Positions 5,600-58,457 of a stretch of DNA of 62,498 bases are shown here, in pieces. Every line of letters begins with the position of its first letter. Within the stretch, counting starts at the first letter, position 1. The stretch comes from Thiotrichaceae bacterium (GTDB taxonomy: Bacteria; Pseudomonadota; Gammaproteobacteria; Thiotrichales; Thiotrichaceae), in contig WFWY01000079.1 in NCBI GenBank assembly GCA_015490895.1, forward strand, positions 1 to 62,498. The letters are read 5' to 3'. The notes below the pieces were generated by a model that did no database searches, was not told where the DNA came from, and was given only the letters and a program-made list of their open reading frames with translations. A program made the translations under genes and the position numbers.

Positions 5600-6175
5600 A
5601 TGTTAATTACCCGCCTCCCTCAAGATCTTATCACCGTTTTTCAACAAGGCGGTATTTTTGCGTACCCCACTGAAGCTATTTATGGGTTAGGTTGTGATCC
5701 TGATAATGAAACAGCCGTCAGGAATTTACTCGCACTGAAAAAACGTGCAGCTGATAAAGGTCTGATTCTCATTGCTGCAGACCTCACCCAGGTTGAAAGA
5801 TACCTCAAGCCCCTGAGCACCCGGCAACGTCAACAGCTTTCCCCCAGTTATACTACCTATACTTTTCCTGCCAGGGATACGGTTCCAACCTGGTTGCGTG
5901 GCAATTATCATTCTCTCGCTATCCGTATCACCCGACACCCCCTGGTCAAACAGTTATGTCTTGAATTAAACAGCCCTGTTGTTTCTACCAGTGCCAATGT
6001 TTCCGGTAAGCCACCTGCCAGAGACTTTGCTGAGGCTTTGGCATGGGCGAAGCAAGTTTTACAAAAAACCGCTGATAGCAGAGCCATTGACGCCATTCTT
6101 GAAGGGGAAACCTGTGGCTTAACCCGACCCAGTATGATCCGTGACGGTGTAACCGGGCAAATACTGCGCTCCTGA
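5600..6175 (+). CDS. tsaC: L-threonylcarbamoyladenylate synthase TsaC (YrdC/Sua5 family)
   Basis: The enzyme makes threonylcarbamoyl-AMP from threonine, bicarbonate and ATP, the first step of the tRNA t6A37 modification. The 191 residues match the short single-domain TsaC form. Family signatures are present: FAYPTEAIYGLGCD (residues about 20-33), the Lys/Arg-rich ALKKRAADKGLILI and the STSANVSGKPPARDF nucleotide-binding segment. The Shine-Dalgarno is weak (aaaga). Genomic order dprA-smg-topA-tsaC is widespread in gammaproteobacteria and supports the call. Confidence 0.94.
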   Translation: MLITRLPQDLITVFQQGGIFAYPTEAIYGLGCDPDNETAVRNLLALKKRAADKGLILIAADLTQVERYLKPLSTRQRQQLSPSYTTYTFPARDTVPTWLRGNYHSLAIRITRHPLVKQLCLELNSPVVSTSANVSGKPPARDFAEALAWAKQVLQKTADSRAIDAILEGETCGLTRPSMIRDGVTGQILRS

Positions 6176-6288
6176 GCACACCTCATCTTTCATATTTTCA
6201 ACATGTTAAGGATATTTCTTGGCAAGAATCTTATTTTTATCCTATAACCACTGGGGTAAGCAGGTTTTTTAACTCAGGAGTAATGTGT

Positions 6289-6558
6289 ATGGAAGTCATG
6301 GAAATAGTAACTATGCTGGTTATTGGTGCTGTCGCTGGCTGGTTGGCCGGCCTGGTAATGAAGGGTGGTGGGTTTGGTTTGATTGGTAATATTATCCTGG
6401 GAATTCTTGGGTCCGTTGTCGGAACCTTTATAGGTGGATTTATTTCCGGAGCAGTTACCTTGCCTTTTTCCGGCCTACTGGGAACCCTAATCTGGGCAGT
6501 CATCGGAGCTATAGTGCTACTGGTCGTTCTTGGTTTTCTCAAGAAACTGTTCAGTTGA
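6289..6558 (+). CDS. GlsB/YeaQ/YmgE family small membrane protein
   Basis: A Gly-rich integral membrane protein of about 89 residues with three hydrophobic segments. The opening MEVMEIVTMLVIGAVAGWLAG and the repeated GN/GxxGG motifs are typical of the YeaQ/YmgE (transglycosylase-associated) family, whose function is unresolved and which is often stress induced. Two start codons are possible. The ATG at 6283 lies only 2 bases after the AGGAG (6276-6280), whereas the ATG at 6289 lies 8 bases after it, so I prefer 6289. Confidence 0.85.
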   Translation: MEVMEIVTMLVIGAVAGWLAGLVMKGGGFGLIGNIILGILGSVVGTFIGGFISGAVTLPFSGLLGTLIWAVIGAIVLLVVLGFLKKLFS

Positions 6559-10734: not shown

Positions 10735-10807
10735 AAAACTCAAAAGAGAAGAGCATCTCGTTGCAGCTTCTATTCGATCGAACATTGCCAGCTTTGTAGA
10801 CGTTTAA

Positions 10808-10875
10808 GAAGACTCTGCTCAAGTCCCAATCGTTTTCCTGAGGCTGAAATTCGACCGGACTTAATCAGAGGCTCC
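10808..10875. mobile_element. Internally deleted family-A element, copy A2
   Basis: A 68-bp derivative with gaagactctgctcaagtccc at the left and gacttaatcagaggctcc at the right. It is flanked on both sides by TTAA (10804-10807 and 10876-10879), which gives the clearest target duplication in the family. Its left half matches the left half of A4 (caagtcccaatcgttttcct) and then jumps directly to the opposite terminus, so the middle is missing. Confidence 0.7.
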
Positions 10876-10898
10876 TTAACAAAAAACGACTGTAAGAA

Positions 10899-56072: not shown

Positions 56073-56933
56073 TTATTCGTCATAAAATGGCGGGGTAGTC
56101 GCAGAGAAGCGAACATCATCGATGTAGATGTGTTCCTCTTTACGGGGAGCCCAGTCTTTTCCGTAGCCACCGAAAAAGGATGCAAACTGAAAGCGGCTGA
56201 TTTTCAGCTTGCTGACATCACGAAAACGCATGTTTTCTTTTGTAAGCACTTTCTTGCCGTCTAGCCAGGTGACAATTTTACCGTCGTACTTGCCGGGTGT
56301 GTTGAGTTCAACCAGGGTCTGAACGGTATGCCATACACCACGTTCAATTTCACCTACCACATCGAAATACAACACGTCACCGTATTGTCCTTCCTGATCG
56401 GGGTGGTAAACATACTGCACTAATCGGCCTTTTCCGTCCCACATCATGCGTACGCTCCAGCCATCTTTGCCCGTAGGTATCTGCCCACCGGCGTTGCCTT
56501 TGCCCCCGGCGATACCTGGCAGCTTGCCTCCCTTGATAAATTCAAAGTCATCGCCAAGTTTAAAACGGTAACCGTAGTACAGTTTCTCCAGCTTGACCCC
56601 CAAATTCACAGGCCAGTTAATACATCGTTTGCGCCCTTTGCAACTGGAGATACCCTTGGGGTAGGTGAGTTTTAATGCCCGGCCTGAAAAAGCAATGTCC
56701 TCTCCCTCAACCACGGATACCAGATTGCGTCCCATTTGCCACTTCGGTCCTGACCAGTCCAAATATAACTGTAACCAGGTATAGGGCCCCGGCTCATGAT
56801 TGTCAAAATCAATTAACCAGGTTTCACCTGACTCCAGCGGTGTTTTTCCAAAATCAAAAAGGCTGGCATAGCTATTAGTCGTGGCCAAAAAGGCAAGACC
56901 AAAAACTACAGGGATAAAGGCGTGAAGAGTCAT
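56073..56933 (-). CDS. Secreted polysaccharide lyase, PL14-like
   Basis: A 286-residue exported protein with a Sec signal (AFIPVVFGLAFLATTNSYA) and a jelly-roll lyase domain of the PL14-like/heparin-lyase-like fold. The family block YGYRFKLGDDFEFIKGGKLP, followed by GIAGGKGNAGG, is clear, as are the strands WSVRMMWDGKGRLVQYVYHPD and IYIDDVRFS. It probably cleaves an anionic polysaccharide such as alginate or glucuronan, but the specificity cannot be assigned. No other polysaccharide genes are nearby. Confidence 0.75.
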   Translation of the reverse strand: MTLHAFIPVVFGLAFLATTNSYASLFDFGKTPLESGETWLIDFDNHEPGPYTWLQLYLDWSGPKWQMGRNLVSVVEGEDIAFSGRALKLTYPKGISSCKGRKRCINWPVNLGVKLEKLYYGYRFKLGDDFEFIKGGKLPGIAGGKGNAGGQIPTGKDGWSVRMMWDGKGRLVQYVYHPDQEGQYGDVLYFDVVGEIERGVWHTVQTLVELNTPGKYDGKIVTWLDGKKVLTKENMRFRDVSKLKISRFQFASFFGGYGKDWAPRKEEHIYIDDVRFSATTPPFYDE

Positions 56934-57390
56934 TCGGCATGATCCGGTCTATGATTGAAAGTAGCTAAATCCTGATTGACTATGAGAAAGGTTAATCCAC
57001 GTAGATTCACATGGCCGGATTATACCACTAAAAAAAACAGAAATTGTGGTGTTGCCGGTTCTTCTTGTTTGAGGAACCTCTGTTCAAGTCCCAATCGTTT
57101 TCCTGAGGCTGAAATATCGCCATTTTTTCGCTATAAAAGTGACCAATAGAATGACTATTACTCTTTTCTATCAAAAAACTGATGAATTTCATCACACAGG
57201 AAATTCGACCGGACTAATCAGAGCCTCCTTAATTAAGAAGAACATGACACTTGTTGTAACAGGGTAGCATTTGTCAGGAACCCGCCAGGTGATGGGAGAA
57301 TACTGAGAGGTTTTTCAGCAGCAAATCCAGCAGGTTCCTGGCCTTTTATGAAGAAGCCGAAAGGCTAAGTATTAATACTATATCTAACGG
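56934..57390. other. Gap between lyase gene and EGKCG-peptide gene
   Basis: The gap holds a full family-A element (57073-57228). The first 139 bases contain the lyase gene's upstream region. The last 160 bases have a short imperfect repeat (caggttcctg) but no gene, and no clear terminator for the peptide gene. Confidence 0.5.
57073..57228. mobile_element. Family-A MITE-like element, copy A4 (full length)
   Basis: A 156-bp element, ggaacctctgttcaagtccc at the left and ggactaatcagagcctcc at the right, flanked by TTGA and TTAA. It is the same as copy A1 on the opposite strand and shares the left-end sequence caagtcccaatcgttttcct with A2. The left end contains a tRNA T-arm-like string, which is coincidental. 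Confidence 0.75.
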
Positions 57391-57603
57391 TTAGTGACTT
57401 CCACAATGCCCTTCTTTCTTACCTTTTTTCGCACCACATTTACCTTCACCTTTATTGGCACCGCATTTGCCTTCTTTAGCGGTGCTCCTGGACGAGCTTG
57501 TTGCGGTAGAACCGGTGTCTTTGTAGCTATTACTACATGATACGACACTGGCTGCGAGGGTTGTGGTGACAGCGATGACCAGGAGATCTTTACGTGAAAT
57601 CAT
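57391..57603 (-). CDS. Orphan EGKCG-motif exported peptide (HvfA/bufferin-like RiPP precursor)
   Basis: A 70-residue protein. The N-terminus is a signal peptide (basic ISRKD, hydrophobic LLVIAVTTTLAASVV) ending at Cys23 (VVSC), which allows either ordinary cleavage or a weak lipobox. A Ser/Thr-rich linker (24-42) precedes a Gly/Lys/Cys tail with EGKCG at 44-48, EGKCG at 53-57 and EGHCG at 64-68, ending in SH. Repeated EGKCG motifs are typical of HvfA-type precursors. In those precursors an MNIO enzyme (DUF692, HvfB) with partner HvfC converts the cysteines to oxazolone/thioamide-type copper ligands. Neither partner is in this window. A ribosome-binding site (aaagga) precedes the ATG by about 7 bases. 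Confidence 0.7.
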   Translation of the reverse strand: MISRKDLLVIAVTTTLAASVVSCSNSYKDTGSTATSSSRSTAKEGKCGANKGEGKCGAKKGKKEGHCGSH

Positions 57604-57728
57604 ATTTTATTCCTTTGTTGGTTAAGAAAATAGTGTACTTGTATTGTGTGATACAGGTAGCTAACCGGTAGTTACGCAGCGCCCACTGCTTTGGATTCAT
57701 GGCCTGAGAAATAAAACAGGCAGGTTTT

Positions 57729-58457
57729 TCAATAACGAATTCGGGGTAGTGTTATTTTCCAGTACATCATGAGCAAGAAACCGATCAAGGCACCACCTAC
57801 GTGTGCGAAATGAGCAACGCCTCCTCCGAAAATAGAGAAGCCGGTCACTCCTGAAAACAAGTCCAGCGCAATAATGGCAGGAATGAAGTACTTGGCAGCA
57901 ATAGGTACAGGAAGAAAAATCAGCATCAGCTTGGTGTTGGGAAACAAGAATGCGAAGGCAACAAGTACTCCATAAATCGCGCCGGATGCACCCACCATGG
58001 GGGTATGAAAGATTTGATAAAAGCTGCCAAAAGTTTCTTCAGAGATAATTTTGGCGGGATAGCTTGCTGTTTCCAGCATGGAACGAATGATCTCCGGACT
58101 GACGCCATTATCAATAAGCTGGGTATAAGTCGCATTAAATTGTACATAATGTATTGCTGTATAGAATATCGCGGCACCCATACCAGAAATGAAATAAAAG
58201 AGAAGGAAGCGGGAGCGCCCCCACATTTGTTCCAGCGGGGTACCGAACATCCACAGGGCAAACATATTAAATAATATATGGGCAAAACCGGCATGCATAA
58301 ACATATGGCTCACGAGTTGCCACAGAGCGAAATGTTCATTTTTCGGAAAATACAGGGCGAGACTGTCGAGCAGTTGTGAGCCCTGGGATTGGCTGGCAAA
58401 AAAAACGAGCAGGTTAATGGCGATCAGGCCATTAACGGCAGATAAATAAGGTCGCAT
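57729..58457 (-). CDS. Rhomboid family intramembrane serine protease
   Basis: A 242-residue inner-membrane protease with about six helices. The catalytic serine is Ser158 in GASGAIYG and the histidine is His219 in AHFAHVGGALIGF. The oxyanion-loop WR-type motif is replaced by HMFMHAGFAHILFNMFALWMFG with conserved HxxxN (His60, Asn64 region). An insertion of about 40 residues (residues 107-150, between the second and third helix) is longer than in GlpG. The natural substrate is unknown. It lies upstream of the EGKCG peptide and downstream of the S24-like gene on the same strand. Confidence 0.9.
   Translation of the reverse strand: MRPYLSAVNGLIAINLLVFFASQSQGSQLLDSLALYFPKNEHFALWQLVSHMFMHAGFAHILFNMFALWMFGTPLEQMWGRSRFLLFYFISGMGAAIFYTAIHYVQFNATYTQLIDNGVSPEIIRSMLETASYPAKIISEETFGSFYQIFHTPMVGASGAIYGVLVAFAFLFPNTKLMLIFLPVPIAAKYFIPAIIALDLFSGVTGFSIFGGGVAHFAHVGGALIGFLLMMYWKITLPRIRY

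Follow-up and report, generated by a model that had tools for sequence, protein, structure and literature searches.

A lipoprotein-type EGKCG-repeat precursor in a Thiotrichaceae genome, candidate substrate of a distant HvfBC pair

The closest described relatives of the peptide analysed here are the precursors of the HvfA/oxazolin/captophorin family (Buf_EGKCG), which includes Haemophilus HvfA and fontiphorin FonA. These are small, Sec-exported peptides with repeated EGKCG motifs that are usually, but not by definition, encoded beside MNIO, DUF2063 and DoxX genes. The available part of the bufferin survey of Antoine et al. 2025 (PMC12452194) describes Buf_EGKCG/oxazolin clusters, some of them with oxidoreductase-molybdopterin (MsrPQ-like) and ferric-reductase-like genes, as well as stand-alone bufferin/Buf_EGKCG genes lying away from the MNIO genes of MNIO-bearing genomes, whose products, the authors suggest, are modified by enzymes encoded at another locus; the proportion of lipoprotein signals in that part (16%) is given for Buf2 only. 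Separately, a lipidated EGKCG peptide has been reported, NedA of Neisseria dentiae (a lipidated oxazolin, or DAG-RiPP), which has a lipobox and three EGKCG-type motifs and showed lipidation together with a 12-Da loss on co-expression with NedBC, a mass consistent with modification of all three motifs (PMC12636315). Lipidation and MNIO-dependent modification are thus compatible on a single EGKCG peptide.

Within a 62,498-nucleotide stretch of the genome of a Thiotrichaceae bacterium (the window), we confirmed an open reading frame encoding a 70-residue product (MISRKDLLVIAVTTTLAASVVSCSNSYKDTGSTATSSSRSTAKEGKCGANKGEGKCGAKKGKKEGHCGSH) followed by a stop codon (Table 1). As originally predicted, the product has the features of an exported peptide (a basic N-terminus, a hydrophobic core and a lipobox, read from the sequence and conserved in paralogues), and the motifs EGKCG, EGKCG and EGHCG follow the signal peptide, which ends in VVSC. 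The repeated motifs are those of HvfA-type precursors, and VVSC, at residues 20-23, gives the type II signal peptide with lipobox that characterizes DAG-RiPPs. Against the NCBIfam HvfA-family domain NF050137 the peptide scored 19.3 bits, just under the cut-off of 19.5, and its orthologue in the congeneric genome G003 scored 23.9. The narrow HvfA equivalog NF050188 (at least 95 bits) did not report the window peptide at E values up to 1, and the best sister peptide scored (L118) reached 49.7 bits against that cut-off of 95; we therefore do not file the window peptide under HvfA in the strict sense. A degenerate DNA pattern for EGK/QCG matched 15 sites in the 2.78-Mb genome, every one of them within four short exported ORFs, and the reversed pattern, used as a control, gave 0 and 1 matches, so that peptide ORFs of this type exceed chance expectation. 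A scan for promoter- or terminator-like sites around the gene found none.

Table 1. Features of the EGKCG-repeat precursor gene and its neighbours (window positions)
Feature	Position	Strand	Basis
EGKCG-repeat lipoprotein precursor gene	57391..57603	-	ORF; NF050137, 19.3 bits; same-locus orthologue in G003, 76%
Shine-Dalgarno-like AAAGGA 5' of ATG	57611..57616	-	sequence; upstream alignment, conserved in G003 orthologue
Type II (lipoprotein) signal peptide, residues 1-22, M-x-S/T-R-K-x-L-L style	57538..57603	-	sequence; identity to cluster-borne signal peptides
Lipobox cysteine, residue 23 (VVSC), predicted lipidation site; next residue Ser	57535..57537	-	Cys23 in 8/8 unlinked genus precursors
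Core motif 1, EGKCG, residues 44-48	57460..57474	-	sequence
Core motif 2, EGKCG, residues 53-57	57433..57447	-	sequence
Core motif 3, EGHCG, residues 64-68; EGKCG in G003 orthologue	57400..57414	-	sequence
Rhomboid protease, GxSG and His motifs, upstream neighbour	57729..58457	-	PF01694, 5.7e-30; syntenic in G003
Polysaccharide lyase family 14-like protein, downstream neighbour	56073..56933	-	PF21294, 3.3e-35; syntenic in G003

Within the genus, this site is shared with G003 only, where the orthologue (76% protein identity) has four motifs and lies in the same position between the polysaccharide lyase and rhomboid genes. Comparison of the two genes gave a dN of 0.16 with dS saturated, and this excess of synonymous change indicates purifying selection on the peptide. 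The gene could instead have arisen by duplication of a cluster precursor and be decaying, with its signal peptide kept and its function lost, as its three motifs against four in the orthologue, the altered EGHCG and the score just below the family cut-off might suggest. However, the reading frame, lipobox and ribosome-binding site are intact, and the substitution pattern points to a gene kept by selection; we regard decay as very improbable and, judging from the sequence, the peptide as genuine and functional-looking.

No MNIO, HvfC or DoxX homologue is present anywhere in the window, which extends the earlier observation that neither the enzyme nor its partner lies within 5 kb. The further claim that the peptide is an orphan without modifying enzymes did not hold, and a truly enzyme-less state was rejected, since a search of the rest of the genome, as the original prediction had proposed, recovered HvfB, HvfC and DoxX on other contigs. 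The single MNIO of the genome (PF05114, 1.7e-102; contig C153:10913-11764) is of the HvfB type (NF003818, 435.7 bits, cut-off 360) and is followed by hvfC (297 bits, cut-off 142) and then by msrP and msrQ. The DoxX/HvfX gene is split, with its start at the end of contig C10 and its remainder preceding hvfB on C153, and our joining of these two contigs rests on the two halves of this one gene. Just 5' of doxX, C10 carries two tandem precursor genes, hvfA1 (5978-6301; two EGKCG motifs) and hvfA2 (starting at 6394; five EGQCG motifs). The resulting order, precursor-precursor-doxX-hvfB-hvfC-msrPQ, matches that of published Buf_EGKCG clusters, including the MsrPQ-like genes. A second unlinked precursor, with six EGKCG motifs, is encoded on C32, where a TauD-like gene and dsrA lie downstream of it. 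Because the enzyme pair is in the same genome as the window peptide but far from it, the products of several dispersed precursor genes are probably modified by the same enzymes.

Features of HvfB bear on which cysteines it could modify. MNIOs acting on EGKCG-type substrates share a pair of neighbouring arginines close to the N-terminus, and their catalytic aspartate is followed by a phenylalanine (PMC13097082), and the HvfB of this genome carries both (R14-R15 and D250-F251), as do the HvfB proteins of G001, G004, G005 and G021. In G001, G003 and G004 the additional MNIO is of the DUF2282 type and lacks both the second arginine and the phenylalanine, and an enzyme of this type is disfavoured as the modifying enzyme because it lacks the diagnostic residues and is absent from this genome. 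Since FonBC tolerates histidine before the cysteine in one variant, as well as several changes at position 3 (PMC13097082), EGHCG is a plausible substrate. The minimal FonBC substrate requires two motifs, which in that case are adjacent 5-mers (PMC13097082), whereas the cysteines of the window motifs are 9 and 11 residues apart; this spacing argues against modification by the distant enzymes, an objection softened by the similar spacing in hvfA2.

To place the window peptide among its relatives, we compared precursors from five genomes of the genus, comprising eight unlinked and five cluster-linked genes, of which the paralogues are not independent data points. The unlinked precursors (the window gene and C32; G003 C300; G005 C170 and C112; two tandem genes on G004 C146; and G001 C75) all have the lipobox cysteine exactly at residue 23, and VVSC, previously considered unusual, is therefore an ordinary lipobox. 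By contrast, the linked precursors (two on C10, one on G004 C133 and two on G005 C76) all have soluble-type signal peptides; those of G005 were counted as linked by analogy, C76 breaking just 3' of the precursors and C171 beginning just 5' of doxX. Signal-peptide pattern and core motif are common to both classes, and over the first 20 residues the lipoproteins are on average 58.5% identical to the cluster-borne signal peptides (50-65% for the window peptide), compared with 15% for a small, loosely selected control set of signal-peptide-like N-termini. In the unlinked precursors Cys23 is followed by serine or glycine, from which the Lol rule predicts sorting to the outer membrane. Conservation of the motifs includes the glutamate and the glycine of each, in addition to the cysteine. 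In a class-wide sample, which consists of the highest-scoring loci, is biased towards them and says little about stand-alone genes, all linked precursors were without a lipobox and in most the signal peptide was followed by an NPFxxxxLxxGYM segment. This segment is absent from the precursors of the genus studied here, which bears on their recognition by HvfC and also weighs against modification in trans.

Each of the five genus genomes that are at least 90% complete encodes HvfB/HvfC as well as the peptide type, and G002, which is 69% complete, has neither. The hvfB gene of G003 is cut by a contig end, and a true absence was rejected, as the contig ends inside the gene, whose last bases read QAKYETTKVTGTHG-stop directly before hvfC. 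The dsr-linked site is common to the genome of the window (G000), G001, G004 and G005; the TauD query used for this locus in G003 and G002 itself matched nothing and so is uninformative about a peptide there. At this site G004 has two tandem lipoprotein precursors (C146; L119 8956-9792), suggesting local duplication. In G001, which is 100% complete, the hvf cluster lies mid-contig with the order doxX-hvfB-hvfC-msrPQ and contains no precursor gene, and about 180 bases 5' of doxX are followed by an unrelated gene. The only EGKCG peptide found in G001 is the dsr-linked lipoprotein on C75, and HvfBC therefore appears to have been kept there for an unlinked substrate. Single pattern matches on G001:C1 and G004:C91 fell in short or closed frames and were rejected as additional precursors.

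These data make it probable that the window gene encodes a lipid-anchored precursor of the HvfA family (EGKCG, oxazolin/captophorin) whose modification is carried out in trans by HvfBC from its distant locus, one of the possibilities raised in the original prediction. The peptide would be synthesized in the cytoplasm, where HvfB and its partner HvfC would turn the EGKCG and EGHCG cysteines into copper-binding heterocycles, either 5-thiooxazole or, by an earlier assignment, oxazolone-thioamide. Sec-dependent export, lipidation of Cys23, LspA cleavage and sorting to the outer membrane would then yield a copper buffer at a fixed surface, with the cluster-borne hvfA1 and hvfA2 products as soluble periplasmic forms. 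Grounds that had been named in advance for abandoning the prediction, namely EGKCG-less homologues belonging to another family or a lack of MNIOs in peptide-bearing genomes, were not encountered.

Alternatively, the unlinked lipoproteins may go unmodified, their free motif thiols binding copper or other soft metals in the manner of a membrane-anchored metallothionein. No enzyme is linked to the window peptide, and in the available part of their survey Antoine et al. count Buf_EGKCG genes without any MNIO in 67 of 2583 assembled genomes and allow that unlinked precursors go unmodified (PMC12452194). Yet every peptide-bearing genome of the genus that is at least 90% complete also has HvfB/HvfC, these enzymes are retained in G001, where no EGKCG peptide other than an unlinked one was found, and conservation of the motifs goes beyond their cysteines. 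We consider this alternative unlikely.

A role tied to the neighbouring genes was also weighed, with the peptide processed by the rhomboid or S24 protease, or forming part of a surface-polysaccharide or sulfur-metabolism unit, and any metal function secondary. The identical neighbours in G003 and the position of the sister lipoprotein upstream of dsrA in four genomes fit such a role. Relatives of the rhomboid occur in four other congeners (65-67% identity in G005 and G002, 54% in G001 and G004), and the peptide gene is not beside any of them, although exact orthology is uncertain; this makes a part for the neighbouring proteases in the mechanism unlikely. Moreover, apart from its signal peptide the window peptide contains no transmembrane segment, and it lacks a GG-CTERM tail; S24 peptidases of the type encoded in the window work in the cytoplasm, and LspA is the peptidase expected to cleave at the lipobox. 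The earlier suggestion of rhomboid or S24 processing is thus unsupported, we give a role with the neighbours hardly any credence, and neither the rhomboid nor the polysaccharide lyase is considered a member of the system.

The window peptide differs from each of the described systems. Compared with the HvfA/oxazolin/captophorin precursors, it is unlinked and carries three spaced motifs, including EGHCG, behind a lipoprotein signal peptide, with no NPFxxxxLxxGYM segment, although its genome encodes the same HvfB-type MNIO, HvfC, DoxX/HvfX and MsrPQ. NedA shares the lipobox and the three motifs but was found by mining MNIO gene neighbourhoods (PMC12636315), whereas the window lipoprotein lies far from the enzymes and the precursors encoded beside them are soluble in this genus. 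Like the stand-alone Buf_EGKCG genes, the window gene lies away from the MNIO of its genome; the available part of the survey does not connect those genes with lipidation or with a conserved place such as dsr (PMC12452194). Open-licence main texts yielded no report of a division into linked precursors that are soluble and unlinked ones that are lipidated, of the conserved dsr linkage, or of a precursor-less cluster accompanied by a lone lipoprotein, which does not amount to proof of novelty, and nothing relevant on DUF692 with dsrA was found in open-licence papers. Because searches usually start from the neighbourhood of the enzyme gene, unlinked lipoprotein substrates would escape mining.

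More broadly, we tentatively suggest, as a possibility that may well prove wrong, that in this genus a single HvfBC pair serves both the soluble cluster precursors and scattered lipid-anchored ones, one of them conserved beside dsr, that in one species the lipoprotein is apparently the only substrate, and that the anchored form represents the core function, perhaps connected with how the envelope handles metals or sulfur. With its split between the two classes, and with one species whose enzymes have no precursor beside them, the genus lends itself to a direct test of modification in trans and lets soluble copper buffers be compared with membrane-anchored ones in a natural setting.

Several other features of these loci were observed. 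Upstream of the hvf precursors, C10 (L007 32-4574) encodes a MerT-like protein, a thioredoxin-like protein, a DsbD-like membrane protein, a heavy-metal-associated (HMA) protein and a CobW-type GTPase. The second cluster precursor, of the hvfA2 type (L007 6394-6768; L162 531-914), has EGQCG motifs in G000 and EGKCG and EAKCG motifs in its G005 counterpart. A second MNIO system, of the DUF2282 bufferin type or one related to it, is present in three congeners (L166 892-4206, which is G001 C36; L167; L168), and in G001 a relative of the window rhomboid lies about 540 bp downstream of it. The listed relatives of the window rhomboid itself are nearly all from Bacteroidota (up to 56% identity), with one from Thiotrichaceae at 64%; inter-phylum transfer is possible, as is the absence of the organism's own close relatives from the list. 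Finally, an interspersed repeat of about 165 bp lies 3' of the window gene and also 3' of hvfA2 on C10, with copies at 57070-57232, 2335-2496 and 10802-10879 of the window, at L007 5347-5511 and 6856-7018, and at L008 1061-1232; full copies are 84-91% identical, and the repeat looks like a small non-autonomous mobile element.
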